From positions 1-25,157 of the IMG/VR virus record IMGVR_UViG_3300010392_000768: a DNA stretch of 25,157 bases; one strand, given 5' to 3'. This DNA comes from a virus. The position numbers were made by a program, and so were the translations under genes. Below, one piece after another: positions 835 to 15,340 of the stretch. Position 1 is the first letter of the stretch, and each line of letters starts with the position of its first letter. The notes under the pieces are model-generated. The model did not search any database and was not told the DNA's origin. It saw only the letters and a list, made by a program, of their open reading frames with translations.

Positions 835-853
835 GCCGCCGCACAAAATGTAG

Positions 854-883: not shown

Positions 884-887
884 GTGC

Positions 888-984: not shown

Positions 985-1086
985 TTACCCGGAACGCCCG
1001 AAGCGGCAACCTTTACACAGCTTATTGCACACAAAGGCCGATCTGGGCTTCCGGGTGCGTTAACGAATCCAACCTTTTCATAACTA

Positions 1087-1115
1087 TTGAATAAACGCGG
1101 CATTCGCGGTACATT
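1087..1115 (+). promoter_or_regulatory. Possible second promoter giving an almost leaderless mRNA
   Basis: TTGAAT (1087-1092) and TACATT (1110-1115) are separated by exactly 17 bases and match the sigma-70 hexamers at 5 of 6 and 4 of 6 positions. The predicted transcript start would fall on or next to the ATG at 1121, which lacks a Shine-Dalgarno, so translation would be leaderless. This is a weak prediction. The rest of the stretch from 984 to 1086 shows nothing I can name. Confidence 0.3.
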
Positions 1116-1120
1116 TCAGC

Positions 1121-1522
1121 ATGAACCGACGATCATTCATAGTTGGATTTGCCGCATTGTGGGCGTTCCCCGCGCAAGCCAGTGATATCGAGGCGGTCTT
1201 TCGCCGCGCTTATATGTTGATGGATTACGAGAAGGACGCCAAATCCAACAGCGCGGACCTTGTAAGGCAGGGTAAGCGGTTCAAGGCTGATTGCCTCGGC
1301 TTCGCCCTGACGTGCCAGACGTTGCTTTCCGATCGGGAAAGCTGGATACACTATTGCGCCACGCTTGGCGGCAGACCCCACGCGGTTCTGGAATGCGGCG
1401 GGTATATCCTCGACATCCGTTATCCGGGGCTGCGGACTGTTGAACAGGCAAAAAAGGGAAGCGGGTACACATTCCATGAGTTCCTACCGGCTAACGCCAA
1501 AGCAGCGGGCTTAAATGGGTAG
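1121..1522 (+). CDS. Exported transglutaminase-like cysteine peptidase
   Basis: This encodes 133 aa. The N terminus is an export signal with a twin-arginine motif (NRRSFI at residues 2-7), a hydrophobic core and a likely cleavage site after AQA at residue 20. The mature part has a plausible Cys-His-Asp triad: Cys58 in ADCLGFA, His87 in RPHAVLEC and Asp98 in YILDIRYP. This order and spacing match the bacterial transglutaminase-like cysteine peptidases (BTLCP/LapG superfamily), although the domain is short. An NlpC/P60-type peptidase is the main alternative, since DCxGF is also seen there. The likely site of action is the periplasm, on a peptide or protein substrate I cannot name; a role in lysis or envelope modification is possible. 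It is the first gene after the control region and its end overlaps the next gene by 8 bases. Confidence 0.7.
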   Translation: MNRRSFIVGFAALWAFPAQASDIEAVFRRAYMLMDYEKDAKSNSADLVRQGKRFKADCLGFALTCQTLLSDRESWIHYCATLGGRPHAVLECGGYILDIRYPGLRTVEQAKKGSGYTFHEFLPANAKAAGLNG

Positions 1523-2138
1523 GAAGGCTTGCCCACGTTGCCAGCAAATGCGGTTTGGCTGCGCTGTATGTAGCAAGGCGTTGGGGATTTCAGGGCCGGG
1601 TTATTATGTCTATGAGCTTATAGATCCGAGAACGAATGGCGCGTTTTACGTGGGCAAGGGGCGAGGCAATCGCGCGCTTCACCATCTTGGCGGCGTGAGC
1701 AAAAACAACAAAAACAAAACCGCCTTGGTCGAGGAAATTAGAGAGTCCGGGTTAGAGCCAGAGATTAGGGTAGTTAGGGAATTCGATGACGAGCAGGCCG
1801 CGTATGATTTTGAGCGGGAACACATAGAAGAAATAGGGCTTGAAAATTTAACAAATGTAAGGCCGGGCGGCGGTACAGGTCGCTTCGAGGCCGAGCTTAA
1901 ACACTTCGTTAATTCTTTGCTCGCTCACGAGTGGAAACCGATATCCGAATACCCGAAAGACAAGCGGCATTGGCCGGTAATGGTGGTTAACGGAATCAAA
2001 GAGACCGCCAACCTTTTTGTTGAAAAATGGGGCGATAAAGCCGTCCCGCTACAGAGGCACGTTCATGGGCGCGTTCAGGCTTACCTCAAAGCAGACGAAG
2101 TTTGCGGAACTGGTGATCGCGGGCGTCAAGCAGGTTGA
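1515..2138 (+). CDS. GIY-YIG endonuclease with N-terminal zinc knuckle and C-terminal DUF551-like domain
   Basis: This encodes 207 aa in three parts. Residues 6-19 have Cys6, Cys9, Cys16 and Cys19 (CxxC, six residues, CxxC), a probable zinc knuckle. Residues 30-118 are a GIY-YIG nuclease of the LEM-3-like type: YYVYELIDP, FYVGKGRGNR with Arg53 as probable catalytic arginine, and a closing acidic helix followed by LTNVRPGGG. Residues 138-190, opening with WKPISEYPKD, resemble the DUF551-type domain of many phage proteins. It may be a free-standing homing endonuclease or a nuclease that assists packaging; its position directly before terminase fits both. The start ATG 1515 overlaps the upstream stop, and the last 74 bases overlap the terminase small subunit gene. 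Confidence 0.8.
   Translation: MGRKACPRCQQMRFGCAVCSKALGISGPGYYVYELIDPRTNGAFYVGKGRGNRALHHLGGVSKNNKNKTALVEEIRESGLEPEIRVVREFDDEQAAYDFEREHIEEIGLENLTNVRPGGGTGRFEAELKHFVNSLLAHEWKPISEYPKDKRHWPVMVVNGIKETANLFVEKWGDKAVPLQRHVHGRVQAYLKADEVCGTGDRGRQAG
2053..2057 (+). promoter_or_regulatory. Shine-Dalgarno deciding the small terminase start
   Basis: AGAGG lies 7 bases ahead of ATG 2065. In-frame TTG codons at 2017 and 2020 have no such site, so this favours ATG 2065, inside the end of the upstream nuclease gene. Confidence 0.6.
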
Positions 2139-2535
2139 GGCTTATAAGGCTGTCTATAAGAGCGACAAAATGAGTCCGAACGCTTTGGCGGTTGAGGCAT
2201 CCCGTTTAATGCGGCATCCGCAGGTATCCCTAAAGATCGCCGAAGGGAGAGAGAAAGAAATTATTGAGCCGACGGCAACGTACACTCAATTCACGCATCA
2301 AAAGGCGGTTGAGCTGGCGCTACATGCGGCGAAGCGTGCGGATGAATTAGGCCAGTCCGGCGCCTATGTGTCGGCGGTTCGGTTGGCGAGCGATCTGCAA
2401 GGTTACATCACGGAAAAGAAATCCGTTGAGGTCACTACCAACCCCTGGTCGGAAATCGCCGAGCTGACGGGCGCCGGCAAGCGCCACCTGGAGGAAGATG
2501 AGCAGCATTCGGGCGGTAGCGGGTCAGTTCACTGA
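2065..2535 (+). CDS. terS: Terminase small subunit
   Basis: This encodes 156 aa from ATG 2065. The N-terminal half is the typical helix-turn-helix region of Terminase_2 (PF03592) proteins: LTSKQTKFAELVIAG, then VEAYKAVYKSDKMSP, then ASRLMRHPQV and an arginine/glutamate helix. In this family the subunit recognises the packaging site and assembles into a ring that hands DNA to the large subunit. The rest is helical and probably makes the oligomer. The acidic C-terminal end (HLEEDEQHSG) may contact the large subunit. The gene overlaps the nuclease gene upstream by 74 bases and the large subunit gene downstream by 38 bases. Confidence 0.85.
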   Translation: MGAFRLTSKQTKFAELVIAGVKQVEAYKAVYKSDKMSPNALAVEASRLMRHPQVSLKIAEGREKEIIEPTATYTQFTHQKAVELALHAAKRADELGQSGAYVSAVRLASDLQGYITEKKSVEVTTNPWSEIAELTGAGKRHLEEDEQHSGGSGSVH

Positions 2536-3973
2536 CAAGCGTTGGCGGTTAAGCAACCTTTACCACGTCACGGACAAGACGGGGGCCAAGGTTCGATTCC
2601 GCATGAATTGGGCTCAAGAGGCCCTGTTCGACAATATGCACTTTCTGAATACGATATTGAAAGCCCGCCAGCTTGGGTTTTCGACATTCATTCAGCTTTA
2701 CATACTCGACGATTGTTTGTTCCACGCGAATATACGGGGCGGCGTTATTGCTCACACTCGGGAAGACGCGCAGGCGATATTCAAGGACAAGGTTCGGTTC
2801 CCCTACGACTGCCTTCCGGAAGGGCTGAAGGCGGCGGTCCCGGCAACTCAGGACAGCGCGCAGGCGTTGAGCTTCGCGAACAATTCCAGCGTTCGGGTCG
2901 GCACGAGTTTGCGATCCGGCACGTTCCAATGCCTTCACATATCGGAGTTCGGCAAGATTGCGGCGCTGTATCCCGACAAGGCGCGGGAAATCAGGACAGG
3001 CGCGCTGAATACGGTCCAGGCTGGTCAAAAGGTGTGGATTGAATCCACGGCGGAGGGGCAGGCTGGTGATTTTCATGATTTGTGCGTGACGGGCATGGAG
3101 GCGCAGCGGCGCAAGACCAAGCTCACGGCGCTTGATTTTAAGTTCCATTTCTTTCCGTGGTGGAAGGAACAGGAATACACGCTGGCCCCGGAAGGCGTCG
3201 AGATACCGTCGGACATGGCGGAATACTTCGCCAAGCTGTTGACGATTGGAATAGACCTCACGCCGGAACAAAAGGCCTGGTACGTCAAGAAAGCGGAACA
3301 GCAGCGCCAGGATATGAAGCGCGAATTCCCCTCGACGCCGGAGGAAGCTTTTGAGGCGTCGATTGAGGGCGCTTATTACGGCGATCAGATTGCGGCGCTG
3401 GAGGAAGCGGGAAAGATATGCGCGGTTCCTCACGATCCGGCTGTCCCGGTGGAGACGTGGTGGGATTTGGGCATCGGCGATGCAATGGCGGTATGGTTCA
3501 TCCAGCGTGTGGGCCGCGAGATTCACGTTATCGACTATTACGAAAACTCGGGTGAGGGCATTCCGCACTACGCGAAGATGCTGGCGGCGAAGCCCTACAC
3601 CTATTCGGAACATATTTTGCCGCACGATGCCGAGGCGCGGGAATTGGGTTCCGGCAAAACGCGCGTGGAGACGTTCAAGGGGCTGGTCGGAAAGGCCCCG
3701 CACGTTGTCCCTAGGCAGAGCGTGGAAGACGGCATCGAGGCGTCGAGGAACATCCTGAGTCTGTGTTGGTTCGACGCGGAGAAGTGTTCCGAGGGCCTGA
3801 AGGCGCTGAAGAACTACCGCAAGGAATGGGATGACAAGCTCGCGACGTGGAAAGATAAGCCGCGTCATGATTGGGCATCGCATGGTTCTGATGCGTTTAG
3901 AACGGGCGCGATGTACAGGCCGTCGAATCCCCGACCGAAGGGGCCGAAAAGCCCGAAACTCAATATTCGATAG
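2498..3973 (+). CDS. terL: Terminase large subunit (packaging ATPase and nuclease)
   Basis: This encodes 491 aa, a usual length. The N-terminal ATPase has an adenine-site region near residues 36-45 (MNWAQEALFD), a deviant Walker A KARQLGFST at 55-63, a Walker B-like CLHISEFGK at 145-153 with Glu150, and a coupling motif IESTAEG at 181-187. The C-terminal RNase H-like nuclease has candidate metal-binding acids Asp323 (WWDLG), Asp377 (LPHDAEA) and Asp465 (HGSDAFR). It would pump DNA into the prohead through the portal and cut the concatemer. ATG 2498 has GGAGGA only 2 bases upstream, an unusually tight Shine-Dalgarno, so coupling with the overlapping small subunit gene probably helps. The conserved LSNLYHVTDKTGAKVRFRM segment supports this start rather than a later one. 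Confidence 0.95.
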   Translation: MSSIRAVAGQFTDKRWRLSNLYHVTDKTGAKVRFRMNWAQEALFDNMHFLNTILKARQLGFSTFIQLYILDDCLFHANIRGGVIAHTREDAQAIFKDKVRFPYDCLPEGLKAAVPATQDSAQALSFANNSSVRVGTSLRSGTFQCLHISEFGKIAALYPDKAREIRTGALNTVQAGQKVWIESTAEGQAGDFHDLCVTGMEAQRRKTKLTALDFKFHFFPWWKEQEYTLAPEGVEIPSDMAEYFAKLLTIGIDLTPEQKAWYVKKAEQQRQDMKREFPSTPEEAFEASIEGAYYGDQIAALEEAGKICAVPHDPAVPVETWWDLGIGDAMAVWFIQRVGREIHVIDYYENSGEGIPHYAKMLAAKPYTYSEHILPHDAEARELGSGKTRVETFKGLVGKAPHVVPRQSVEDGIEASRNILSLCWFDAEKCSEGLKALKNYRKEWDDKLATWKDKPRHDWASHGSDAFRTGAMYRPSNPRPKGPKSPKLNIR

Positions 3974-3981
3974 GAGTTCAA

Positions 3982-4185
3982 ATGAACAAGATTGCGTTTA
4001 ACGGCGCCACGCTTTCGCCGTGGTCCGACTTCAACAGCATTATGAACAATGCGCGCACGCTGGCCGTTCACATCGGCGATAAGGTGTTCGACGGCGATTT
4101 CGAGCTTCGGGAAGAAGAAGGCAACGTCGTGATTGCCTTTGACGAGCCGAAGAAACGCGGCCGCCCGGCGAAGGACGAGGACTAG
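3982..4185 (+). CDS. Small phage protein with a basic AT-hook-like tail
   Basis: This encodes 67 aa with a good AGGAG 5 bases before the ATG. Most of the protein is an acidic alternating-polarity domain (residues 10-52), probably beta-rich. The last 13 residues hold KKRGRPAKDED at 57-67, which contains the RGRP core of AT-hook DNA-binding motifs. It sits between terminase and portal, where phages often keep small head or packaging accessory proteins. DNA contact is suggested only by the short tail, and one hook alone is weak evidence. The portal start follows 4 bases after its stop. Confidence 0.75.
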   Translation: MNKIAFNGATLSPWSDFNSIMNNARTLAVHIGDKVFDGDFELREEEGNVVIAFDEPKKRGRPAKDED

Positions 4186-4189
4186 GCGA

Positions 4190-6538
4190 TTGCCTGACGC
4201 ATCCTCCATCGCGCGGCGGCCCCTGACCGATTCCGACCTCAAAAACATGATCGGCCAGGAAATCCAGCGCTCGGTCGATTGGTTGAATGGTGAGTTGGGG
4301 CAGGACCGCGAGGACGCGCTTGCCCGATACTTTGCCGAGCCTTACGGCGACGAAGTGGAGGGGCGGTCTCAGGTTGTCTCGACGGACGTGCAGGATACGG
4401 TCGAATCCGTAATGCCGGGCTTGATGGAAGTCTTTGCCGCGTCCGATGAAATCACCAGGTTCGAGCCGGTGGGTCCCGGAGACGAGGAACAGGCCGAACT
4501 CGCGACGGACTACGTTAAATATGTTTGGTGGCGGGACAATGACGGTTTCTCCATCATGCATGACTGGATCAAGGACGGCTTGCTCCAGAAGAATGGTATC
4601 ATCAAGGTTAGTTGGGACGACACGCCGAAGGTAAGCCGGGAGAACGCTCGAGGCGTCAATTCCTTGGTCTTGGCCGAACTGCAAGCGGATAATGAAGTCG
4701 AGATTATCGAGGTCGAGGAACGCGCGGCGACCGAGGAGGAAATGCAGTTTGCTCCAGATGGGGTTTTGTATGACCTGACGATAAAGCGCACGCGGGAGGA
4801 TGGCCGGGTGTCGATTGTGCCGATCCCGCCTGAAGACTTCATGATTCAGCGCCGGGCGGTGGATTTGGATTCGGCGCGGTTCAAGGCGCATCGGGCGAGA
4901 TACACGCGGTCTGACCTGATTAGCATGGGCTACGATGAAGATATCGTAAACAAGCTGCCAACGGACGACGCGGACGACTGGAACGAGGTTGAGGAACAGC
5001 GTTTTAACGACGAGGAATGGCTTGCGAGCGATAGCCCATTGGATTTCGCCTCCCATGAAGTGACGGTTTACGAGTGCTATATCAACGTCGACTTCGACGG
5101 CGACGGCATTACGGAACAGCGCATGGTGGTGGTCGGCGGGCCGGGTTATGAAATCCTTGCTAATGAGGAAGTGGACGATCATCCGTTTTGTTCGCTGACA
5201 CCGATCAAGATGCCGCACAAGTTCTTCGGGCGGTCTTTGGTCGATTTGACGGCGGATATTCAGGAAATCAAGACCATCCTTTGGCGGAATCTCAATGACA
5301 ACGCCTATTTGCTGAATAACGCGCGGACGGGCATCAGCAACAAGGTCGATCTGGACGATTACCTGAATACCGACCCAGGCGCCGCAATTGGCGTGGATAC
5401 GGAAGCGGGCGACGTGGCCGGGCATTTCCACGAGTTGACCACGACGCCTTTGGGGCCGTCGCTGTTCCCCATGCTGGAATACATCGACAGCATCCGTGAG
5501 ACGCGGACGGGCGTGACACGGTATAACCAGGGCCTCGATGCGGACAGCTTGAACAAGACCGCAACGGGCATGAACCAGATATTGGGGCAGGCGGCGAAGC
5601 GGCAAATGCTTATCGCCCGCACCATCGCTGAGTTGGGCGTGAAGTCGGCGGTCCGGAAAATCTTGCGGCTTTTGGTTAACCACCAAGATCGCGAGCGTAT
5701 GATTCGGCTCAAGGGTAAGTGGGTGCCGATGGACCCGCGGTCCTGGAATGCTGAAATGGACGTTTCAATTTCGGTTGGCTTGGGTCATGGGACGAAAGAG
5801 ACCCAAATGATGGCCGACCAGCTCATGTTGAACGTCATGCACCAAATCGTGGCGCTCCAACAAGGTATTGATGGGCCGTTGGTGACGCGGAAAGGCCTGC
5901 ACACGGTTCTCAAGCGGTTTGCGGGCAACAACGGGTATCAAGACCCAGATACGGTCTTCGCCGATCCGGAAGACCCGGCAAACCAGCCGAAAGAACAGCC
6001 TGACAAGGAAATGCTGCTGGAGCAGGCCAAGGTTGAGGCGGAAATGCAGAAGACGCAAATGCAGATCGCGCAGAAAGACCGCGAAATGCAGGCGACAGGG
6101 GAACTTGAACAGCGCAAGGCCGAACAAGACGCGGCTTTGGAGCAAATGAAAGCCCGTCTTGATGCGGAATTGCGGCAATGGGAGGCGGACCAAAAGATTC
6201 GGCTGGCCCAATGGGAAACCGAGCAAAAGATGACGCTGGCTTACATGCAGGCTGGCATCGAGCGCGAGAAGATGGAAATGCAGGTCGGCATTGAACGCGA
6301 GAAAGCGGCAATGGCGGCTGATGCGGAACGTTCCAAGGTCATGATCCAGGCGGATGCGGAAGACCGGCGCCACGAGCGCCAGACAGCAAGTGAGGAAAGG
6401 CGTTCACAGCATGAACGCGCGCCCGCTCCCGCGCCGTTGCCGCCAATCAATGTGCATATCGGCGGTCAGAAGAAAGCGGTTAAGTTTGAGCGGGACGAAA
6501 GCGGTAACATCGCCGGCGCAAGCGTGGACGATTCCTAG
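4190..6538 (+). CDS. Portal protein (head-tail connector)
   Basis: This encodes 782 aa from TTG 4190, chosen because GAGG at 4177-4180 lies 9 bases upstream and the previous gene ends at 4185. The frame is open further upstream but would overlap that gene. The N-terminal region has the features of podovirus portals: QVVSTDVQDTVESVMPGL, then DYVKYVWWRDNDGF, GLLQKNGIIKVSWDD and VPIPPEDFMI. The dodecameric ring would sit at the vertex where DNA enters and the adaptor binds. The C-terminal part from about residue 600 to 745 is a very long Gln-, Met-, Glu- and Lys-rich coiled coil, followed by a proline-rich linker. It is probably a barrel extension like that of P22-type portals. The stop shares one base with the next GTG. 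Confidence 0.9.
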   Translation: MPDASSIARRPLTDSDLKNMIGQEIQRSVDWLNGELGQDREDALARYFAEPYGDEVEGRSQVVSTDVQDTVESVMPGLMEVFAASDEITRFEPVGPGDEEQAELATDYVKYVWWRDNDGFSIMHDWIKDGLLQKNGIIKVSWDDTPKVSRENARGVNSLVLAELQADNEVEIIEVEERAATEEEMQFAPDGVLYDLTIKRTREDGRVSIVPIPPEDFMIQRRAVDLDSARFKAHRARYTRSDLISMGYDEDIVNKLPTDDADDWNEVEEQRFNDEEWLASDSPLDFASHEVTVYECYINVDFDGDGITEQRMVVVGGPGYEILANEEVDDHPFCSLTPIKMPHKFFGRSLVDLTADIQEIKTILWRNLNDNAYLLNNARTGISNKVDLDDYLNTDPGAAIGVDTEAGDVAGHFHELTTTPLGPSLFPMLEYIDSIRETRTGVTRYNQGLDADSLNKTATGMNQILGQAAKRQMLIARTIAELGVKSAVRKILRLLVNHQDRERMIRLKGKWVPMDPRSWNAEMDVSISVGLGHGTKETQMMADQLMLNVMHQIVALQQGIDGPLVTRKGLHTVLKRFAGNNGYQDPDTVFADPEDPANQPKEQPDKEMLLEQAKVEAEMQKTQMQIAQKDREMQATGELEQRKAEQDAALEQMKARLDAELRQWEADQKIRLAQWETEQKMTLAYMQAGIEREKMEMQVGIEREKAAMAADAERSKVMIQADAEDRRHERQTASEERRSQHERAPAPAPLPPINVHIGGQKKAVKFERDESGNIAGASVDDS

Positions 6539-7788
6539 TGGCGAATCCGAGTGAGGGCTTTTTGCCCGTTGGCGTTTCGGGGGAATTGCTCGATACCACG
6601 CTGATAAACCAGAAAGACGGCACGCCAACGCACCGCGAGAATATTCTAATCACCGGCGTTGCGTCGGACGGCAGCAACACAAGCACGACCGCATTGGGGA
6701 GCGGGGAGACGTTCACCGGCGAAGGGGAACTGAACGATCTCCCTGATGTGATGGTTTCGTGCCAAACCGACAATTCCGGGACGCTGTATTTTGATTTTTC
6801 CGTCGATGGGACCAACTGGACGCGCTTTCCCGTCAATGGCTTTAAGATAACGGCTGGAATCCATGAATTTCATACGGCGGTAAAAGGGCCGCGCTATTTC
6901 CGCGTTGAATTGGTCAACGACACCGGCGCGCAGTCTTATCTGCGGCTCTACACGTACTATGGGGCGTTCCGGCAGGGCAATTCGCCGCTGAATCAGTCGG
7001 TGTCCCTCGACACGGACGCGGCGCATGTGCGGCCCAGTGATTTCCAGGATGAAATCCGCCTTGGCCGACGGTCTGGCGTGACGGGCTGGAATAAGTTTGG
7101 TTTCAAGTCTTCCCTGACCGCTTCGAGCGGGGAGCAAATGGTCTGGCCTGCGTCGGGGAACTTCACGCCGATGACGAGCGCGTCCACGTTCGACATTGCT
7201 TATGATGGGACTGCGGGCGGGACGACGGACGGGGCGGGGACGACCGGCGCGCTGGCGATGACGATTTACTACATAGATTCGTCGGGCTTGCCTGCGGTTG
7301 CGCTTCATACTCTCGGGACGGACGGCACGGACACCACGTCGTTTAGCGGGTTGGGCATTAACCGGATCGCGGTAAGCTCAACCGGGACAAACGACACGAA
7401 TGTTTCAGATATTACGGTAACGGCGACGGGCGCGGGGACGACGCAGGCAATCGTTCCGGCAGGGACTGGCGTCACACAGCAGGCGTTGTTTTTTACGGGC
7501 AGCAACCACACGGCGGTTGCTCCGTTTTTGTGGGTCAATGTCGGAAAGCCCGGTGGTGGCAACGCGAAGGTCACGGTTAAGGGCTACGTCTACAACCGAG
7601 GGGTTGATTCGCGGTTCGAGGTTTTCCGTGCGTTGGTCGATACGGCATCGGAGACGACAGTTTCAATCAATGAGCCTGTCAAGTTTCAACTGAATGCGAC
7701 GGACGTTCTCTATTTTGTCGCCGATACGGACACGAATGCGGCGAGCATAAACGTGCGGTTTTCCTTGAATGAATATCAGTTGTTCTAA
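6538..7788 (+). CDS. Beta-rich virion structural protein
   Basis: This encodes 416 aa from GTG 6538, which overlaps the portal stop by one base. The first 140 residues form a beta domain containing FDFSVDGTNWTRFPV and GPRYFRVELVND, a pattern common in phage structural proteins. Residues 150-416 form a second domain beginning VRPSDFQDEIRLGRRSGV and rich in Thr, Gly and Asp. It resembles structural proteins of marine podoviruses that lie near portal genes, but I cannot name its exact place in the virion. Low lysine and high threonine fit an extracellular virion part. Decoration protein, fibre or head-fibre protein are all possible. Confidence 0.8.
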   Translation: MANPSEGFLPVGVSGELLDTTLINQKDGTPTHRENILITGVASDGSNTSTTALGSGETFTGEGELNDLPDVMVSCQTDNSGTLYFDFSVDGTNWTRFPVNGFKITAGIHEFHTAVKGPRYFRVELVNDTGAQSYLRLYTYYGAFRQGNSPLNQSVSLDTDAAHVRPSDFQDEIRLGRRSGVTGWNKFGFKSSLTASSGEQMVWPASGNFTPMTSASTFDIAYDGTAGGTTDGAGTTGALAMTIYYIDSSGLPAVALHTLGTDGTDTTSFSGLGINRIAVSSTGTNDTNVSDITVTATGAGTTQAIVPAGTGVTQQALFFTGSNHTAVAPFLWVNVGKPGGGNAKVTVKGYVYNRGVDSRFEVFRALVDTASETTVSINEPVKFQLNATDVLYFVADTDTNAASINVRFSLNEYQLF

Positions 7789-8030
7789 TGCTCGCCTCTT
7801 TGCTGCTCAATGAGCCGGTCCCCGGTAGGAGGGTTATCTATGGCGTATGGGAAGAAGAAGACAGGGAAGAAACGCCCGTCGCGGAAGTGCGCGCCCGCCC
7901 GGCGCCGTCGGTACTAACCAAGTTTCACAAGCCGGAATATATCCGGAATTTCTTTGCCACGGCTGAAGGCCGGGCGCGGAGGAAGCGGGACGATGACGCT
8001 ATTCTCGCTTTGATCTTAACCAGCGTCTAA
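7788..8030 (+). CDS. Small hypothetical protein, overlapping a nested gene
   Basis: This encodes 80 aa. ATG 7788 shares its A with the TAA of the previous gene (TAATG coupling). The middle is acidic (WEEEDREETPV) and the C-terminal half is basic with a hydrophobic end (DAILALILTSV). I recognise no family. A 25-codon gene with a much better Shine-Dalgarno lies within it in another frame at 7840-7917. If only one is real, the nested one has the stronger initiation signal. The end past 7917 would then be unexplained, which argues for keeping this frame too. Confidence 0.45.
   Translation: MLASLLLNEPVPGRRVIYGVWEEEDREETPVAEVRARPAPSVLTKFHKPEYIRNFFATAEGRARRKRDDDAILALILTSV
7827..7832 (+). promoter_or_regulatory. 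Perfect Shine-Dalgarno of the nested small gene
   Basis: AGGAGG stands exactly 7 bases before ATG 7840, the best Shine-Dalgarno of this region. It is the chief reason for annotating the nested gene. Confidence 0.6.
7840..7917 (+). CDS. Nested 25-residue highly basic peptide
   Basis: ATG 7840 to TAA 7915-7917 encodes 25 aa, of which 12 are Lys or Arg. It opens MAYGKKKTGKK and ends in RRRRY. Very short Lys/Gly-rich proteins starting this way are common beside portal and scaffold genes in podovirus genomes; the next gene (8043) opens similarly with MMYGNKYPKG. A role in binding DNA or the acidic scaffold is a guess. It lies wholly within 7788-8030 in another frame, with a perfect Shine-Dalgarno. 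It falls below usual gene-caller length limits. Confidence 0.5.
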   Translation: MAYGKKKTGKKRPSRKCAPARRRRY

Positions 8031-8042
8031 GGAGCATCCGAA

Positions 8043-8171
8043 ATGATGTATGGCAACAAGTACCCGAAAGGGGAAACCCCGGTGATGACTCCGGGAAAGG
8101 GTATCAACCTGAAAGGCGGGCGACCGCTGCCGGGCGATTCCCTGTCGAAAAAGGGTGGCAAGCGTAAGTGA
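8043..8171 (+). CDS. Small Gly/Lys-rich phage protein
   Basis: This encodes 42 aa. AAGGAG at 8029-8034 lies 8 bases before ATG 8043, and the stop TGA (8169-8171) overlaps the GTG of the next gene (GTGA). The sequence opens with MMYGNKYPKGE, is rich in Gly, Lys and Pro, and ends in KKGGKRK. It is probably disordered and basic. Its opening is like that of the nested peptide at 7840, so the two could be related by duplication. The function is unknown; the position before the scaffold and capsid genes suggests a head-assembly accessory. Confidence 0.7.
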   Translation: MMYGNKYPKGETPVMTPGKGINLKGGRPLPGDSLSKKGGKRK

Positions 8172-8467
8172 CACCCGAAGACGAGGCCAAAGCCCGCGTT
8201 CGCCTAGAGCGTGGCGTTAGGGCGCAGGCCATTCTGGACGACGACATTACCCGCGAAGCCATCGAGGCACTTAAAAAGCGGGCCTATGAATCGTTCAAAT
8301 CGGCTGACCCTGGGGACACTCAGGCGTTGGCCATTGCTAAAATGCGATTCGAGGTGACGGAGGATTGGGTCAACCATTTCGCCAGCCTCATGCAGAAGGG
8401 CAAACAAGCGGACGCAGCACTCGCCAAGTGGCACGCGCTGCCGGCCCGGAGAAAACGAACCGCTTAA
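8168..8467 (+). CDS. Helical hypothetical phage protein before the scaffold
   Basis: This encodes 99 aa from GTG 8168, coupled to the previous stop. The protein is almost wholly helical: GVRAQAILDDDITREAIEAL near residues 16-35, then KRAYESFKSADPGDTQAL, then a helix with VTEDWVNHFASLMQKGKQA. Proteins with this order (conserved ILDDD-type start, a Ser/Asp linker and a final coiled segment) are common between portal and scaffold genes in podoviruses. I know of no assigned function. It ends in a basic tail (ARRKRTA). Confidence 0.75.
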   Translation: MTPEDEAKARVRLERGVRAQAILDDDITREAIEALKKRAYESFKSADPGDTQALAIAKMRFEVTEDWVNHFASLMQKGKQADAALAKWHALPARRKRTA

Positions 8468-8476
8468 CGTAAGGCC

Positions 8477-8488
8477 CGCCGTGAGGCG
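8477..8488 (+). other. Small GNRA-capped hairpin before the scaffold gene
   Basis: CGCC (8477-8480) and GGCG (8485-8488) pair around a GTGA (GNRA-type) loop in the 47-base gap between genes. No T tract follows, so it is not a terminator. It may shape the 5' end of a processed mRNA or be chance; the stem is only 4 bp. Confidence 0.25.
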
Positions 8489-8514
8489 CGCTGTTCCCTT
8501 AGAAGGACACTTTT

Positions 8515-9633
8515 ATGTCGGAAGAAATGGTCACCCCGGATTCGGGAACCAACGAAGGACTGTTCGTCGGTGTAGACGCTGGCGAACGGGCATTTTTAGA
8601 TTCCCTGGACGTTGATGACGGACCCGTAGAGGCACCCGTTACCAAGGAATCGAGCCATGAGGCCACCCCGGAAGCGGAGCCTCAGATGGATGCGGATTTG
8701 GACGACGAAGCGGAAGGCGAGCTTGAAGCCGAAGCCGAGACGGAAGATGACGCAACGGCTTCCGATGAAGCCGATGATACGGAATCCGAAGATTGGGCCT
8801 TGCCGGAGGAATGGTCGCTGGAAGACGCGGCCAAAGACTTGGGCGTGGATCCGGAACAGTTGGCCGCCAGCCTTCGCGTGAAGGTGGGCGACGACCTGGT
8901 TCCGCTCCAGGACGCAATCAAAGGGACACTCCGGGAATCGGACTACACGCGGAAGACGATGGCGCTTGCCGAAGAACGGAAGGCTTTTGAAGCCACCCGT
9001 GCGAAGCAGGCGGAAGAATGGCAAGGCCGTATTCAGCAAGCAGATACGCTTGCGGGCTTGTTTCGCCAGCAGTTGAGCGGAGAAGAGGCCGCTTTGCAGG
9101 ATATGCTGGACGAAAATTCCATCAACTACGATCCGCAAGGCTACATTGTGAAGCGCGCGGAGTTGGATAAGCGTCAAAGAGATTTGGGGCAATATTTCCA
9201 GCATCGCGAGCAAGAGCAAGCGGCCCTTGTGGCTCAACATCGCCAGGAACACCAAAAACTGGCGCGCGAGAACATCCCCGAGCTGGCCACGCCGGAAGGG
9301 GCTGAGAAGTTCCAGCAAGACATGCGGGAAGTCCTCCCGCAATACGGTTACACGCCGGACCAGATCAATGCGTATATGGACGGTGCCTGGGACTACAAAG
9401 ACCTCGCGATTCTTCGGGACGCCATGAAATATCGAGCTTTGGAAAAGGGGAAACCCGAAGCCAGGAAGAAGCTCGCAGGCAAGCCGAAGCTCCGTCCGAA
9501 TGGACGGGATGGAAAAGGCACGCAGGCACAATCGAACACGGACGCCATTCGCCGCCGTCTGAGAAGCAGCAACCCGCGCACGAAGCAGCGGGCCGCTGAG
9601 GACTTTCTCGGCGCATTTGCCGAGACCCTTTAA
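8515..9633 (+). CDS. Scaffolding protein (capsid assembly)
   Basis: This encodes 372 aa with AGAAGGA upstream of the ATG. It lies directly before the major capsid gene and has the layout of podovirus scaffolds. Residues 15-100 are extremely acidic and disordered (many Asp/Glu, DDEAEGELEAEAE). The middle is a coiled coil with Gln and Glu (EERKAFEATRAKQAEEWQGR, about 154-173, and later QHREQEQAALVAQHRQEH). The C-terminal end is basic (RKKLAGKPKLRPNGRDGK, then RRRLRSSNPRTKQR), the usual capsid-binding tail. It would direct prohead assembly inside the shell and then leave. Family assignment comes from layout and position rather than from a named motif. Confidence 0.85.
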   Translation: MSEEMVTPDSGTNEGLFVGVDAGERAFLDSLDVDDGPVEAPVTKESSHEATPEAEPQMDADLDDEAEGELEAEAETEDDATASDEADDTESEDWALPEEWSLEDAAKDLGVDPEQLAASLRVKVGDDLVPLQDAIKGTLRESDYTRKTMALAEERKAFEATRAKQAEEWQGRIQQADTLAGLFRQQLSGEEAALQDMLDENSINYDPQGYIVKRAELDKRQRDLGQYFQHREQEQAALVAQHRQEHQKLARENIPELATPEGAEKFQQDMREVLPQYGYTPDQINAYMDGAWDYKDLAILRDAMKYRALEKGKPEARKKLAGKPKLRPNGRDGKGTQAQSNTDAIRRRLRSSNPRTKQRAAEDFLGAFAETL

Positions 9634-9648
9634 CCGGAGAATGGAACC

Positions 9649-10617
9649 ATGACTCTCTACACCAATGCTTTCCCGACCTACAGCCAGATTGGCCGCCGGG
9701 AAGACCTGAGCGACGCTATTTATGACATCACGCCGACGAAAACCCCGTTTATTTCGGGCATCGCGAAAACCTCGGCGGAACAGACCAATCACGAATGGCA
9801 GACCGATTCGCTCGATGCCAACGTGGACACGAACCAGCAGCTTGAAGGCGATGTGGTCGGCAGCGTGACAGCGGCCACGGCGACAACCCGCCTCGGGAAT
9901 ACCTGTGAAATCGCCCGAAAGGCGTTTGCCGTCACCGGCACGTCGGAAGTGGTCAACAAGGCTGGCCGCAAGTCGGAATTGAAGTACCAGATTCTCAAGA
10001 ATTCCCGCGCGCTTATGCGGGATATCGAGACTTCGCTTCTGGCGAACAAGGCGAAGAATGCGGGCAACAGCACAACGGCGCGGGTTGCGGCGGGTGTTGA
10101 ATCGTGGATTGCGACAAACTCCAGTCGCGGCACGAACGGCGACGATCCTGCGGGAACGGGGGCGGACACAGCGACGGACGGCACGCAGCGCGCGTTGACC
10201 GAAAGCCTGCTCAAGTCGGTATTGAAGGACTGCTTTGATGCCGGTGGTGATCCGGATACGATTCTCTGCTCGTCCAAGCACAAGCAGACCATTTCCGGGT
10301 TCACTGGGAATGCCACGCGCCAAAAAGACGCGATGGACCGAACCCTCGTGGCCTCTATCGAGCTTTATCAATCGGATTTCGGGGATTTGCAAATCTTCCC
10401 GCACCGATTCATGGAAGGTTCGAGCGGCGGCACGCCGGGTTCGATTCGTTCCGTTCTGGTTCTGCAAAAGGATATGTGGGCCTTTGCCTCGCTGCGTTCG
10501 CCGGCCATTTACGACTTGGCTCGGACGGGTGACGCGGAGCCGCGCATGATCCTGGCGGAATACACCCTTGAAGCTCGCAATGAGGCGGCTTCGGGAATCG
10601 TCGCGGACCTTAGCTAA
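9649..10617 (+). CDS. Major capsid protein, SU10-like (DUF5309 type)
   Basis: This encodes 322 aa. The opening YSQIGRREDLSDAIYDITPT, followed by TPFISGI, HEWQTDSLD and TTRLGNTCEIARKAF, is the signature I know from the phage SU10-type major capsid family (DUF5309/PF17236), an HK97-fold capsid protein. Later parts include NSRALMRDIETSLLANKAKN, the long spine-like helix. The protein builds the icosahedral shell. GGAG at 9637-9640 precedes the ATG. A UUCG-capped hairpin follows the stop at 10623-10638 and may protect or trim the mRNA of this highly expressed gene. No N-terminal delta domain is visible; the separate scaffold gene upstream does that job. Confidence 0.93.
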   Translation: MTLYTNAFPTYSQIGRREDLSDAIYDITPTKTPFISGIAKTSAEQTNHEWQTDSLDANVDTNQQLEGDVVGSVTAATATTRLGNTCEIARKAFAVTGTSEVVNKAGRKSELKYQILKNSRALMRDIETSLLANKAKNAGNSTTARVAAGVESWIATNSSRGTNGDDPAGTGADTATDGTQRALTESLLKSVLKDCFDAGGDPDTILCSSKHKQTISGFTGNATRQKDAMDRTLVASIELYQSDFGDLQIFPHRFMEGSSGGTPGSIRSVLVLQKDMWAFASLRSPAIYDLARTGDAEPRMILAEYTLEARNEAASGIVADLS

Positions 10618-10622
10618 GGGGC

Positions 10623-10638
10623 GGGGGCTTCGGCCCCC
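10623..10638 (+). other. UUCG-capped hairpin after the capsid gene
   Basis: GGGGGC (10623-10628), loop TTCG (10629-10632) and GCCCCC (10633-10638) form a perfect, very stable stem. No T tract follows, so full termination is unlikely. It may be an mRNA 3' stabiliser, a processing barrier or an attenuator that lowers expression of the cargo genes after the capsid. Confidence 0.55.
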
Positions 10639-10659
10639 AACTCTCTACAGGAGTTTTCT

Positions 10660-11169
10660 ATGCGAATTATTGCAACTCTTTTCGCGCTCGTGTTCATGGC
10701 GTCTTCCGCGTGGGCCGGTGCGAATCTCCAGCAAAGCGACGACGGGCGGAATGCGCAATGGGTCAATCAAGACGGGGTTTCTTTCCCCGTTGGCGATCCT
10801 GGCCTTGCGGTGTCGATTACAGACATGTCAACGGCGGGGACGACCTACGTTATCTCTCACAAGCCGGGCCTTTTGTCGAAAGCCTACACGGTTCTTCACA
10901 ATGCGCTTTCGGCGGGGTCGAACTCTCCATCCCTGACGTTTTTTCTTGCTTCGGCGGCGTCGGCCAATGATGGGCAGTTTACGCAAGTATCCGATCTGTC
11001 GGGGGCGGCGTTGACCCTTGGGGCCACGAGTGCAGGCGGGAACGGGTCGCTTACCTGGGACGACGCAAACAGCACGCGCGTTGTCGGCCAGGGCGATGTG
11101 ATTGCCATCGTAACGGATGGCGGGTCGACAGGCACCGCGCTTGGTACGATTACGCTTGTCATCGAGTAG
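10660..11169 (+). CDS. Secreted beta-rich protein (capsid-adjacent)
   Basis: This encodes 169 aa with AGGAG 7 bases before the ATG. Residues 1-19 are a clear signal peptide (MRIIATLFALVFMASSAWA) with an AWA cleavage site. The mature part is Gly-, Ser- and Thr-rich and likely all-beta. The C-terminal pattern, ending VVGQGDVIAIVTDGGSTGTA, recalls beta-sandwich phage structural proteins. A signal peptide on such a protein is unusual, since virions form in the cytoplasm. It may instead work in the periplasm or outer surface together with the membrane proteins encoded next. I do not recognise a named family. Confidence 0.7.
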   Translation: MRIIATLFALVFMASSAWAGANLQQSDDGRNAQWVNQDGVSFPVGDPGLAVSITDMSTAGTTYVISHKPGLLSKAYTVLHNALSAGSNSPSLTFFLASAASANDGQFTQVSDLSGAALTLGATSAGGNGSLTWDDANSTRVVGQGDVIAIVTDGGSTGTALGTITLVIE

Positions 11170-12295
11170 GGATGCGGGCGCGGCGGTTCTTGTCGCCGCG
11201 TCCCTTCTCGCCTTTGGCATATGGAGCCCGGAGCCTTTCCGCTGGTCCGCGATATTCCTTTTAGCGTTCTGCGGTTCGTTTTGTTTTTGGAAATACAGAC
11301 CTAAAGTAATATGGCCCTTGATGGCCCTGTTTCTTTGGGCCTGCGTTTCTTTGGTTTGGTCGCCGGATATAAGAACCGGCGTTTTGTATTTGATGCAATG
11401 CGCGGCGGTAATGGTTGTCGCGGCTTTGCCGTGGCGCCGGTCTTTTGTCCTGAATGTGGTTTCGGCGGCGGCGGTGGGGGCGTTCGTTCTAAATTACGTG
11501 CGGCCTTATGCGGGCGGGTTTGGGAATCCGAACTTTCAGGCTGAATTTATTTGCCTCGCCTTGCCGTTTTGCATCGCGAACATCAGGCATAGCTCCCCCT
11601 TGGCTCTTATGGGGGTGGTGGCGTGTTTAGGCGTTCTGGCGCAGTCTGACAGCTCGACACATTGGGGCGCGCTGGCGGGCTTTCTGGTGTTGTTTATGGC
11701 CTATCGCCGCATGTGGTGGACCTTGGCTTATTTCGTGGCGATTGGGGCGAATATCGCGGCGTTTTGGGCGGACGACCTTTGGGCTTGGTCCTCGGTCCAT
11801 GAGCGCGTGGAGCTTTGGTGGAATACCATTGTGATGTGGCTCGATTCCCCGATGGGATACGGGGTCGGGTCGTTCAATTACGAATATTATAGGTTTCAGG
11901 AGGCGCACCCTTGGCAGGACACGCTGTTAAAGGCGCCGACCGTCTTTGCGGGGGCCGCTCACAACGAGTTTTTGCAAGTTTTGGCAACGCTTGGCCCCTT
12001 GGGGGTTATTCTGGCGTGCGCGTCGATCTTGTCGCTTCCCCGCGACGGATTGAGCCTTTCCGTGGCGGGCGTGGCGATATCTCTGGCGGGGTTCGGGTTT
12101 CCGTTCCAATCCGCCGCGCCGCTGATGTTAATGGCTTTGTGTTTTGCGATATCTGAGCCTGCCGATTATCGCATTTTGCGGCGTTTTGCTGTTTTTCGGC
12201 GCGCATTGGGCGCTGGCCGGGGTCCAGTTAAGCAATGCGCGGGTAGCGATCAAGTCCGACCCGTTGGCAGCGTTCCAGTACCTATCGACAGCTAA
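11117..12295 (+). CDS. O-antigen polymerase/ligase-like membrane protein (Wzy/WaaL type)
   Basis: This encodes 392 aa with about ten hydrophobic segments. The Wzy_C hallmarks are present: GFGNPNFQAEFICLALPF at 134-151, then ERVELWW (229-235, Arg230), SPMGYGVGSF (244-253) and AHNEFLQVLATLGPLG (281-296, His282). In this family a large periplasmic loop with conserved Arg and His joins polysaccharide from a lipid carrier to an acceptor. A phage copy could change host O-antigen or other glycans. The start is uncertain: ATG 11117 overlaps the upstream gene by 53 bases and lacks a good Shine-Dalgarno, and TTG 11141 or 11156 are alternatives. The last roughly 35 residues look non-native and overlap the TPR frame, so the true end may be a frameshift (see findings). 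Confidence 0.85.
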   Translation: MAGRQAPRLVRLRLSSSRDAGAAVLVAASLLAFGIWSPEPFRWSAIFLLAFCGSFCFWKYRPKVIWPLMALFLWACVSLVWSPDIRTGVLYLMQCAAVMVVAALPWRRSFVLNVVSAAAVGAFVLNYVRPYAGGFGNPNFQAEFICLALPFCIANIRHSSPLALMGVVACLGVLAQSDSSTHWGALAGFLVLFMAYRRMWWTLAYFVAIGANIAAFWADDLWAWSSVHERVELWWNTIVMWLDSPMGYGVGSFNYEYYRFQEAHPWQDTLLKAPTVFAGAAHNEFLQVLATLGPLGVILACASILSLPRDGLSLSVAGVAISLAGFGFPFQSAAPLMLMALCFAISEPADYRILRRFAVFRRALGAGRGPVKQCAGSDQVRPVGSVPVPIDS

Positions 12296-12581
12296 CAGAA
12301 TATCCAAGCTGGACCCGGAAGTTAGAAAGAACCTGCTTTTGGCTTTGGTTCGGCTGATGGCGGAAAAGAATGTGACGGTTTCGCCGGCGGCGATGGACCG
12401 GGCGATAGAACGAGCCGAGACGGCGGCGCGGCACAGTCCCGCCGTATTGATGATTAAAGCTGAATATTACCTGAAAACGGGGCGCCTGGCGGAAGCGGAA
12501 GCGGCTTTCGAGGCCCTACGCAGGCACACGCCGAACAAGGCGCGACACTGGTTAGATCGGATTGAAAAGGGAAAGCCATGA
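12144..12581 (+). CDS. Membrane-anchored TPR-like protein, probable partner or split C-terminus of the Wzy-like protein
   Basis: This encodes 145 aa from TTG 12144; the start is uncertain and has no Shine-Dalgarno. Residues 5-26 form one transmembrane helix or uncleaved signal (LPIIAFCGVLLFFGAHW). Residues 35-140 are helical and TPR-like, with VLMIKAEYYLKTGRLAEAEAAF (101-122) as the clearest repeat. Many bacterial O-antigen ligases and pilin glycosylases end in a membrane helix plus TPR helices in one chain. Here the frame overlaps the ligase gene by 152 bases, so the two may be coupled separate genes or one protein split by a frameshift. It would face the periplasm. Confidence 0.65.
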   Translation: MRYLSLPIIAFCGVLLFFGAHWALAGVQLSNARVAIKSDPLAAFQYLSTANRISKLDPEVRKNLLLALVRLMAEKNVTVSPAAMDRAIERAETAARHSPAVLMIKAEYYLKTGRLAEAEAAFEALRRHTPNKARHWLDRIEKGKP

Positions 12582-12628
12582 AGGGGTTTCTTGATGGCAT
12601 AATCGGGGCTTTCAGTGGGGAACGGTAA
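12578..12628 (+). CDS. 16-codon ORF, perhaps the lost N-terminus of the next protein
   Basis: ATG 12578 overlaps the previous TGA (ATGA) and has AAAAGGGA at 12565-12572 as a good Shine-Dalgarno. It reads MKGFLDGIIGAFSGER before TAA 12626-12628. Phage polyvalent proteins of the type encoded next often begin with a similar short hydrophobic MGxLDxxxG sequence. The next gene (GTG 12615) starts inside this ORF in another frame. So this may be its true start with a frameshift near 12620, or a separate peptide. Confidence 0.35.
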   Translation: MKGFLDGIIGAFSGER

Positions 12629-13775
12629 ACTTTTCGGGACCGGGCCTGGACTGGGCTTTGATCCTCGTGATGAAATCACGGGGCGCCTGTTTGACCCCGA
12701 GGTGGCAAAGCGCGCAAGCCTCTTGCCTATGGTTCGGATGAACTCCGGAGAACGGGCGTTTGGAGCGCCGCAGTTTTTGGTTGAAATGCTGAATAGCGCG
12801 ATGCTGCCGGGTGCGGCGGCGCAGGGCTATCAGGCAACCCCGCAAGACGCGGCACAGTTCGGCCTCGATTGGATGGCTGGCGGCATGGGGGTGAATGCGC
12901 TCGGCAAGGGCGCGCCACGTGGCGCGGTGTTGGGCGCTAACGTATGGCAGGGCGGCCCTCACAAGTACGGCCCCAAGGGCGCTGCGGAGAGCTTGCAGCA
13001 CGTTGGCAAGGGTGAAGGGGCCGCGGCCTACGGTTGGGGTAGGTATGATGCGGGGGCGCGGGAGGTTGCGGAGAAGTACCGCAAGGACCTTTCCGGTGAT
13101 TTTTGGACGACGCCCGACGGTGAATTATTCGACCCCTCAACCTTAGAACACCTCAATGCTCGCTCTGCCGTGCAACGGAATCCCGATATTGAGTCGCTAT
13201 TGCCAAAACTTAAAGGCATTGCGTCCAAGCAAGCCGGCACAGAAGCGGGTGATATGATGGCTCGCGATATTGCCAAGTTGGAGGCGTTACAGAAAAAGGG
13301 CGGGTTGTCAGAGGCTTCCGGGCACATCTACAAACACGACCTTCCCGACGAAGACATAGCCCGCTATCTCGATTGGGACAAGCCGCTGAGTGAGCAGCCG
13401 GAGAGTGTGAAGGAAGCTTTAAAAGAACTCGGCCCAGAGTTGCAAAAAGTGTTTGATGACTACAGCGACGAATACAATCTGAGCCTAGATTTCGACAGTG
13501 TAGGCGGGGAGCAGTTTGTCCAAATTGTGGGCCGCGCTCTGCAAGATGACTATCTACCAATAAACGGCCCGCACGTCGAAAAGGCGTTAGAGGCGGGAGA
13601 CCTAAAAAAAGCGGCATCTATGTGGCTGCGAAACGAAGATATCCCCGGCCTGAAATATCTCGACGGTATGAGCCGAGGCGAGGGCGCCGGAACCCACAAC
13701 TACGTCACATGGGACCAAGACGTTCTAAACCGCATGAAGCTATTGGAGCGCAACGGCGCGACACAGTTTGATTAG
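12615..13775 (+). CDS. Phage polyvalent protein with ADP-ribosyltransferase-like domain
   Basis: This encodes 386 aa from GTG 12615, with CGGGG about 8 bases upstream. Residues 24-66 (RLFDPEVAKRASLLPMVR) resemble the N-terminal region of phage polyvalent proteins. At 113-146 GGPHKYGPKG and then GEGAAAYGWGRYDA match the motif pattern of ADP-ribosyltransferase-like domains in this class. The closing elements also fit: DLPDEDIARYLDWDKPLSEQ in the middle, IPGLKYLDG at 343-351 and NYVTWD at 362-367. Such proteins are thought to travel in the virion or act early on host targets; the target here is unknown. I cannot confirm an intact catalytic set. The gene ends in the cargo block between capsid and neck genes. 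Confidence 0.75.
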   Translation: MGNGKLFGTGPGLGFDPRDEITGRLFDPEVAKRASLLPMVRMNSGERAFGAPQFLVEMLNSAMLPGAAAQGYQATPQDAAQFGLDWMAGGMGVNALGKGAPRGAVLGANVWQGGPHKYGPKGAAESLQHVGKGEGAAAYGWGRYDAGAREVAEKYRKDLSGDFWTTPDGELFDPSTLEHLNARSAVQRNPDIESLLPKLKGIASKQAGTEAGDMMARDIAKLEALQKKGGLSEASGHIYKHDLPDEDIARYLDWDKPLSEQPESVKEALKELGPELQKVFDDYSDEYNLSLDFDSVGGEQFVQIVGRALQDDYLPINGPHVEKALEAGDLKKAASMWLRNEDIPGLKYLDGMSRGEGAGTHNYVTWDQDVLNRMKLLERNGATQFD

Positions 13776-13788
13776 GAGTGCAAACAGC

Positions 13789-14130
13789 ATGAAAAAATTA
13801 GTTTACGGCCTGCTCGCCGTCGCGGTTCTTATGGGCGCGGCGAAGGCGGCGGACGTGTATCACTTGGTCACGGGTCACGCGGTATCGGCGACCACGGCAA
13901 GCCAAGTTCATTCAACGGCCTTTGCCAATGGGGTGAACACGATCCGAGTGGTGGCGGATGACGCCGCCTTTATCGCGGTCGCGGCGACCAATCCATTCGC
14001 AAGCAACACGACGGGGTTCTTTGTCCCTGCCGACACGCCGGTGTTCCTGTCCATTCAGGGTGGCGACTTTCTTGCCTACAGGGCGTCGGATACGAGCGGC
14101 ATGATATACGTCCAGGAAGTCTCCAAGTAA
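13789..14130 (+). CDS. Small beta-sandwich phage protein with a signal peptide
   Basis: This encodes 113 aa from ATG 13789 (AGGAG at 13774-13778, 10 bases upstream); an in-frame codon at 13768 would add seven residues with no better signal. Residues 1-20 are a signal peptide (KKLVYGLLAVAVLMGAAKA). The mature part, from VSATTASQ through NTIRVVADDAAFIAV and TTGFFVPADTPVFLSI to YVQEVS, belongs by pattern to the small beta proteins commonly found between capsid and adaptor genes in podoviruses. Those usually lack a signal peptide, so the exported form is odd. It might decorate virions or act in the envelope. Confidence 0.75.
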   Translation: MKKLVYGLLAVAVLMGAAKAADVYHLVTGHAVSATTASQVHSTAFANGVNTIRVVADDAAFIAVAATNPFASNTTGFFVPADTPVFLSIQGGDFLAYRASDTSGMIYVQEVSK

Positions 14131-14459
14131 TGAAGCGCCTGCTTGAACACGACCCGCTGACCGGCGTCACGGAATGGGCGCACATTGACGAAATGAGCGA
14201 CGAGTGCGCCATTCAGCACACTCAGGACGTGGAACCGATCATCGAGCGCAACAAGCGGCTTCAGAACGAAGGCCCGAACATGAGCGCGGACAAATCGCTT
14301 CACTGGATCGGGTCCATTCCGCTGGTCATCGCGCACAAGTGGATTGTGGAGGATGGTATTAACTGGCTGGCCCTGCCGAAGCCGGAAATGCGGTCCTACG
14401 TCAACCGCAAGCTATCCGATCCGGATTACCGTTATTTGAGGGTGAGCAGCATCCTATGA
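14130..14459 (+). CDS. Conserved phage neck-region protein
   Basis: This encodes 109 aa; ATG 14130 shares a base with the previous TAA and the end overlaps the adaptor gene by 4 bases (ATGA). The opening RLLEHDPLTGVTEW, followed by QDVEPIIERNKRLQNE and ending DPDYRYLRV, is a pattern I know from small proteins next to capsid genes in podoviruses. Its exact role is not established to my knowledge. The location between capsid and adaptor suggests a head or neck part, or an assembly helper. Confidence 0.75.
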   Translation: MKRLLEHDPLTGVTEWAHIDEMSDECAIQHTQDVEPIIERNKRLQNEGPNMSADKSLHWIGSIPLVIAHKWIVEDGINWLALPKPEMRSYVNRKLSDPDYRYLRVSSIL

Positions 14460-15340
14460 CGATATCGAATTACGGCGAGTTGAAAACGGCAGTTGCAAAT
14501 TATCTGTCGCAGGGTTCGGGGCTGAGTTCCCGGATTCCTGAATTCATCAAACTTGCCGAGGATTATCTTGCGCAGAACCTTCGCGTGCGCGCGATGGAAC
14601 ACACGGTTGATATCATCCTGAAATCTCCGGTGACCGGAACGACGGGCGGCACGGCAAACGCCATCACCCTGACGACGACTTCGAGTTATTCGTCGCTCGC
14701 GACGGGCGATGTTTTTTCGGTGACGGCGACAAGCGAAAGTACCGGAAACGTCACGTTGAATGTGGATTCGGTTGGCGCGACGGCATGGAAAGACGAAGAC
14801 GGTTCGACCGAACTCGAGGCGGGCCGGATACAGGTGGGCGGCACTTATTACGCATATTATGACGGCACGAGCTTTCGCTTGGTCCCGCCCGGTGGGGTTC
14901 CGTTGCCGTCCCGATACAAAGGAATGCGCCGGATATTTCTGGACACCAACCCCGTTGGCATTTTGCAGCACATGCAGCCGGGGGAGCTGTGGGAAACCAA
15001 TACGGGGGTTGTGAACCGCCGGCCGCGCTATTTTACGGTTGAGGGCGAGTGCATCGTGTTTCGCCCGGTCCCGGATACGACATACCACGCGAAGGTTCTC
15101 TACTGGCGGCGCTTTGCCACCCTTTCGGGTGACAGCGATACCAACTGGATCATTGACAATGCCGGCGGGCTTTTACTGTACCGCTCTTTAGTCGAGGCCA
15201 GCCCGTTCTTGAAAGACGATGCGCGGACGTTGACTTGGGCATCGCTTTACGATGACGCCGTTGAAAATGTAATGAAATCGGATAAAGCAGATCGCCACCC
15301 CCACGGGATGCGCGGTCGCCGGGCGCAGCGGGTCCGATGA
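14456..15340 (+). CDS. Head-tail adaptor (SU10 type) with an inserted beta domain
   Basis: This encodes 294 aa. The ends fit SU10-type adaptors, which form a ring between portal and nozzle: residues 3-47 (ISNYGELKTAVANYL, then IPEFIKLAEDYLAQNLRVRAME) and, later, PLPSRYKGMRRIFLD and QHMQPGELWE. The adaptor core is interrupted at about residues 64-144 by an extra beta domain (GTANAITL, then TGNVTLNVDSVGATAWK, then YYDGTSFRLVPP). That domain closely resembles residues 53-133 of the tail fibre at 22715. It lies where plain adaptors pass from one strand directly to the next. The start overlaps the upstream stop (ATGA) and the end overlaps the nozzle gene (ATGA). Confidence 0.85.
   Translation: MTISNYGELKTAVANYLSQGSGLSSRIPEFIKLAEDYLAQNLRVRAMEHTVDIILKSPVTGTTGGTANAITLTTTSSYSSLATGDVFSVTATSESTGNVTLNVDSVGATAWKDEDGSTELEAGRIQVGGTYYAYYDGTSFRLVPPGGVPLPSRYKGMRRIFLDTNPVGILQHMQPGELWETNTGVVNRRPRYFTVEGECIVFRPVPDTTYHAKVLYWRRFATLSGDSDTNWIIDNAGGLLLYRSLVEASPFLKDDARTLTWASLYDDAVENVMKSDKADRHPHGMRGRRAQRVR

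Follow-up and report, generated by a model that had tools for sequence, protein, structure and literature searches.

What is a membrane protein of the O-antigen ligase and polysaccharide polymerase family doing among the head genes of a phage? The question is raised by IMG/VR record IMGVR_UViG_3300010392_000768, whose 25,157 bases (positions 1 to 25,157) are referred to here as the window.

A group of short-tailed phages carries Wzy_C at a set place in the head operon

The head module of the window is ordered terminase, portal, scaffold, SU10-type major capsid protein (MCP) and adaptor. The cassette of interest, all of it on the plus strand, is anchored on the left by the MCP gene (SU10_MCP, 9649-10617; Pfam PF17236, E = 2e-88; phrog_1328) and on the right by a phrog_3982 protein (14130-14459; E = 2e-20) and the SU10-type adaptor, or neck, protein (14456-15340; Pfam PF24175, E = 3e-28). 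Between MCP and adaptor lie a small protein that we call g1, the Wzy_C open reading frame (ORF), a TPR ORF, an extra ORF, a second small protein (g2) and the phrog_3982 protein. The first-pass annotation had located the Wzy_C gene between capsid and neck genes and supposed it to be made late; the flanking MCP and adaptor genes bear out the site, and the late, structural-operon position is likewise supported.

The Wzy_C ORF (11117-12295, 392 amino acids from its ATG) matched Pfam Wzy_C (PF04932) with E = 4e-10 and a score of 40.1 bits (cut-off 31.7), the domain match covering 11615-12016 (residues 167-300 of the 11117 ORF). All four strings taken earlier as an intact family signature (GFGNPNF, ERVELWW, GYGVGSF and AHNEFLQ) are indeed present. 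PF04932 was also matched by all 20 aligned family members, which together with the score rules out a chance match or mis-call; an FtsW/RodA assignment scored under the Pfam cut-off. Starting from ATG 11117 the ORF would overlap g1 by 53 nt, and the true start is probably nearer the g1 stop, at TTG 11156 or TTG 11141, judging by comparison with relatives; neither possible start in the window showed a clear ribosome-binding site.

The extra ORF between the TPR ORF and g2 (12615-13775, 386 amino acids) has weak similarity to large phage polyvalent proteins (phrog_873, E = 3e-4), had no counterpart in Wzy_C-carrying (Wzy+) relatives by tblastn, and by eye resembles an ADP-ribosyltransferase-type domain. 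Elsewhere in the window, an ORF upstream of terminase (1121-1522) has a signal-peptide-like start (MNRRSFIVGFAALWAFPAQA), and a homing-endonuclease-like ORF (1515-2138; phrog_5356, phrog_314) overlaps the terminase small-subunit region. A second IMG/VR record, 3300027790_000113 (L002), is 100% identical over 10,936 bases, its bases 353-11288 matching window bases 1-10936, and stops just within g1.

The carriers are a group of uncultured short-tailed phages. A first capsid-protein scan found three loci with a Wzy_C gene in the same slot, and a scan with the alignment from those three yielded 30 loci; in every one with the region covered, Wzy_C lay in the head operon directly after a g1 homologue. 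A second capsid-based scan added four further Wzy+ loci (L123, L125, L129 and L182). Checking relatives, as had been proposed, thus returned Wzy_C at the identical place, in 22 capsid-protein clusters, and this fixed position rules out a stray moron. When 50,697 phage records were searched by tblastn, neither the window Wzy protein nor those of two relatives nor window g1 had a homologue among them, and an IMG/VR single-protein scan with the window Wzy protein gave no match, the relatives having been reached through capsid-gene synteny. A genome scan gave three matches, of which two are phages of this same kind inside metagenome bins. Contigs L116 and L117, filed under Novosphingobium and Verrucomicrobiota bins, carry this lineage's phage genes, and their host assignment is doubtful.

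The Arg-His pair of the family is invariant and a second Arg is mostly lost

Numbered from TTG 11156, R217 (codon 11804-11806) and H269 (codon 11960-11962) were invariant in 20/20 aligned members, at a spacing of 52 residues, and a PxxGxG motif was kept in all 20; P232 and three glycines were also invariant. The corresponding pairs in WaaL (R288/H338) and PglL (R298/H349) are spaced by 50 and 51 (PMC3643930), and R217 and H269 are, by spacing, their putative counterparts. A second Arg (WaaL R215, PglL R224), whose position we assigned by eye from the alignment, is lost in the window, which reads SDSSTHW, and is kept only in L112, L114 and L115 of the 20-member alignment. The first-pass annotation had made its assignment depend on catalytic Arg and His residues being present in homologues; the pair is there throughout, while the second Arg is gone from most members. 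PglL_A and Wzy_C_2 had no match in any of the 20 members at E ≤ 5. In lineages with an intact gene, dN/dS values of 0.08-0.24 indicate purifying selection.

An AF2 model of the window protein, read through a frame break described below, had a pLDDT of 84 and a pTM of 0.84, with helices compatible with 12 transmembrane segments plus a long periplasmic loop. Its helices at 342-470 correspond to a thirteenth transmembrane helix (TM13) and a TPR part, where Foldseek gave TPR matches; this part dominated the 50 matches listed, none of which had E ≤ 0.001. Since Foldseek recognized only the TPR part among these listed matches, the fold assigned to the membrane part is one read from sequence, and the placement with Wzy and WaaL, for which structure comparison had been proposed as a check, stands at the level of sequence family. 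A PDB sequence search with Wzy and g1 profiles returned nothing useful. From loop charges we infer that the N terminus lies inside and that the long loop bearing R217 and H269, together with the TPR domain, is periplasmic.

Wzy_C and TPR domains form a single protein in most relatives

The TPR ORF (12144-12581, possible TTG start) begins with a membrane helix, the TM13 of the model, and matches Pfam TPR_19 above cut-off; its TPR domain, also seen with AF2 and Foldseek, is predicted to be periplasmic. The description of this ORF as a membrane-bound, TPR-like partner of Wzy_C was therefore right about the helix and the repeats and wrong about its being a separate partner, since in most relatives (L008, L011 and L015, for example) the two parts form one ORF of 563-588 amino acids. 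In the window they are separated by a frame change, with the frames overlapping at 12132-12295, where relatives have a single frame. Splits also occur in L107, L108, L110, L113, L115, L117, L123/L125 and L182, in different frames, the break invariably falling after the final Wzy helix and ahead of the helix that precedes the TPR domain; the ORF is split in about nine lineages and kept single in about 13.

Several accounts of the split were considered and rejected. Two genes by design would not fit the intact relatives, in which there is one protein; sequencing error is unlikely as a general cause because the same break is found in L123 and L125, which come from different samples; and a conserved programmed frameshift is at odds with shifts in both directions and the lack of a common slippery site. 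That the frame is broken in the window as well as in at least eight further loci, and that no clear ribosome-binding site was seen, could instead mean that the window gene is degenerating and its product unused. We consider such decay very improbable: both halves retain their conserved features, the break shared by L123 and L125 argues against it, and breaks fall only at the domain boundary while intact lineages are under purifying selection. The TPR ORF of the window keeps its own membrane helix and so could reach the periplasm unaided.

Predicted signal peptides on head-cassette proteins coincide with Wzy_C

Window g1 (10660-11169) and g2 (13789-14130, in an ORF open from TTG 13768) are each predicted to begin with a textbook Sec signal peptide, MRIIATLFALVFMASSAWA for g1 (10660-10716) and MKKLVYGLLAVAVLMGAAKA for g2. 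Profile HMMs built from Wzy-less relatives only nevertheless recovered the g1 and g2 proteins of Wzy+ phages (window g1, E = 1e-9; window g2, E = 1e-15), so both are homologues of a pair of short cytoplasmic proteins encoded after the MCP in Wzy-less phages such as HTVC106P. In compact members, the cassette genes directly adjoin one another or share 1-4 nt. The AF2 model of g1 (pLDDT 73) is mostly beta in its mature part; Foldseek gave weak jelly-roll-like matches, all above E = 0.001, which were set aside. In one Wzy-less locus (L160:5150-5731) the post-capsid protein lacks a signal peptide and opens like mature Wzy+ g1 (NLKQNADGS).

To compare phages with and without the enzyme, capsid proteins were grouped at 95% identity into 123 clusters, 22 Wzy+ and 101 Wzy-less (120 loci), and signal peptides were called with a home-made n/h/c-region rule rather than SignalP. 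A predicted g1 signal peptide was present in 22/22 Wzy+ clusters (called by script in 20 and by eye in L111 and L112); in none of the 101 Wzy-less clusters (120 loci) did an ORF lying between MCP and adaptor resemble one with a signal peptide. Flags in Wzy-less L135 and L141 were judged internal-start artefacts; they were not reproduced when gene calls were used and the start window was shortened. For g2, a signal peptide was found in most Wzy+ clusters; that of L114 is without one, and in L106 and L111 another gene takes the place of g2.

The linkage is perfect by count, yet it is based on few independent events because the Wzy+ phages mostly fall in one clade. A careful tree of 52 capsid proteins placed most of them together, with Wzy-less L187 and L058 nested inside the clade and Wzy+ L110 and L114 outside it, and well-supported branches of the MCP tree force at least three independent changes. 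In a larger, quick tree, signal peptide and Wzy_C changed together in 3/3 independent pairs (p = 0.25), a number of pairs that cannot reach significance. The coupling of signal peptides to Wzy_C on cassette proteins suggests that these phages export their own proteins for sugar attachment.

A GT-A-like protein occupies the same slot in some Wzy-less phages

A GT-A-like protein with a DxD motif was found between capsid and adaptor in 7/101 Wzy-less clusters (L141:6586-7266, L151:4677-5369, L034:4865-5530, L137, L173, L057 and L150; phrog_1574 in six of the seven) and in 0/22 Wzy+ clusters. Its profile matched STIV A197 (2c0n) at E = 2.9e-5, a proposed coat-protein glycosyltransferase (PMC4187194). 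The mutual exclusion of GT-A and Wzy_C is not significant at that base rate, and its direction agrees with glycan transfer. An apparent Wzy-to-GT swap within the Wzy+ clade, at L034, was seen in the quick tree and is absent from the careful one, so that we set it aside.

Cellular relatives are of two kinds

The best cellular relative found (L205, 195 bits) lies within a polysaccharide locus, beside genes for GDP-mannose dehydratase, mannose-1-phosphate guanylyltransferase and asparagine synthase and a GT2 gene, and two more (L206 and L208) are near what by eye appear to be exopolysaccharide genes. A weaker Wzy_C relative in an Acidobacteriota bin (L118:7467-11155) sits a short way downstream of a gene resembling those for type IV pilins, an arrangement that resembles TfpO and PglL.

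The Wzy_C family takes in both ligases and polymerases, and the polysaccharide neighborhoods would suit an enzyme that alters the glycan of the host envelope, converting serotype or blocking superinfection, with the small exported proteins assisting there. We regard this as unlikely. It leaves unexplained why homologues in the head operon gain signal peptides exactly with Wzy_C, and surface-conversion genes are usually separate morons, whereas in all Wzy+ phages Wzy_C keeps its set place among the head genes. Moreover, a search of nine Wzy+ records turned up no GT2 gene, so any glycan must come from the host.

Discussion

The reading that we favor, with a probability of about one half, is that Wzy_C is a periplasmic O-oligosaccharyltransferase (O-OTase)-like enzyme, dedicated to its substrates in the manner of PglS, TfpO or PglL, that glycosylates the co-encoded, exported g1 and g2. 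Late in infection, the head operon would make g1, Wzy_C-TPR and g2 together; g1 and g2 would exit the cytoplasm via Sec; and the enzyme in the inner membrane would take a host-made lipid-linked glycan and move it in the periplasm onto g1, usually onto g2 too, while the TPR domain beside the active-site loop would hold the acceptor. Dedicated O-OTases often have their genes next to those of the exported substrates (PMC3643930, PMC12645811), and it is because the three-gene cassette resembles this arrangement that we rate glycan transfer to g1 and g2 at this level.

In favor of an O-OTase are the fixed place of the gene, the g1 signal peptides, the conserved Arg, His and PxxGxG, the abutting genes, the low dN/dS and the A197-like GT-A protein in the same slot. 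The case is weakened by the missing second Arg, the lack of PglL_A and Wzy_C_2 matches, and acceptors with neither a C-terminal Ser/Thr (0/14 aligned g1 proteins; window g2 ends in Lys) nor Ser/Thr enrichment as a sign of O-glycosylation (22% vs 20% in g1, no clear difference), as well as by the polysaccharide setting of the best cellular relative, the few independent linkage events and the g2 exceptions.

With PglS, TfpO and PglL the phage protein shares the O-antigen-ligase domain and a periplasmic-loop Arg and His at matching spacing, and here too predicted-exported proteins adjoin the gene as candidate substrates. It differs from them in its place in a head operon, its C-terminal TPR domain, its missing second Arg and its lack of a PglL_A or Wzy_C_2 match; their substrates are pilins, whereas those of the phage would be capsid-cassette proteins, and the pilin acceptor of TfpO and TfpM is a C-terminal Ser/Thr, unlike the ends of g1 and g2. 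WaaL and Wzy-type polymerases share with it the Pfam family, many membrane helices and the conserved Arg and His, but the phage gene lies outside any LPS locus and is tied to predicted-exported phage proteins, and most phage members lack the counterpart of WaaL R215. Phage-borne enzymes of envelope sugars such as D3 Wzy-beta and the Gtr modules are separate morons of temperate phages, whereas the Wzy_C gene has a set place within the head operon and is coupled to two predicted-exported proteins.

The established chemistry of the Wzy_C family is transfer onto or off a lipid-linked carrier. It would equally serve a cassette in which g1 and g2, rather than joining virions, act as decoys that stay bound to the envelope or are released, for exclusion, lysis or biofilm functions, with Wzy_C mounting them, for instance on a lipid or glycan anchor. 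Such a role, which would fit the predicted export of g1 in every Wzy+ phage, seems to us rather improbable, as the homology of g1 and g2 to unexported post-capsid proteins suggests a shared and probably head-related function.

Of the three roles that the first-pass annotation had offered, the one most compatible with these findings is the addition of sugar to virion parts, with a modification: because the neighboring proteins are predicted to be exported, the transfer would be periplasmic. Tailed-phage heads assemble in the cytoplasm, and export signals are unexpected on head proteins. We tentatively suggest that a phage O-OTase glycosylates the exported cassette proteins in the periplasm and that these coat the heads once lysis mixes the compartments, replacing a cytoplasmic route. 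Cytoplasmic virion glycosylation, for which STIV A197 is a candidate and which in mycobacteriophages involves capsid glycosyltransferases, is similar in that a virus enzyme is proposed to add sugar to particle proteins; there the enzymes are GTs in the cytoplasm, whereas we propose a membrane transferase with exported acceptors. Predicted Ig-like minor capsid protein gp10 of phage SU10, for which the SU10 head has no density (PMC9509320), resembles g1 as a small capsid-related protein of an SU10-type phage, both being predicted to be rich in beta structure.

The enzyme family is already known; for the combination of a head-operon site, a TPR fusion and coupled, exported capsid-cassette homologues, we found no description in the open-paper literature searched. 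To our knowledge, a phage-encoded O-OTase would be the first. If our reading is true, how exported proteins meet the particle becomes a question for these phages, and their head operons would offer a compact supply of new enzymes for glycan transfer whose acceptors are very small.
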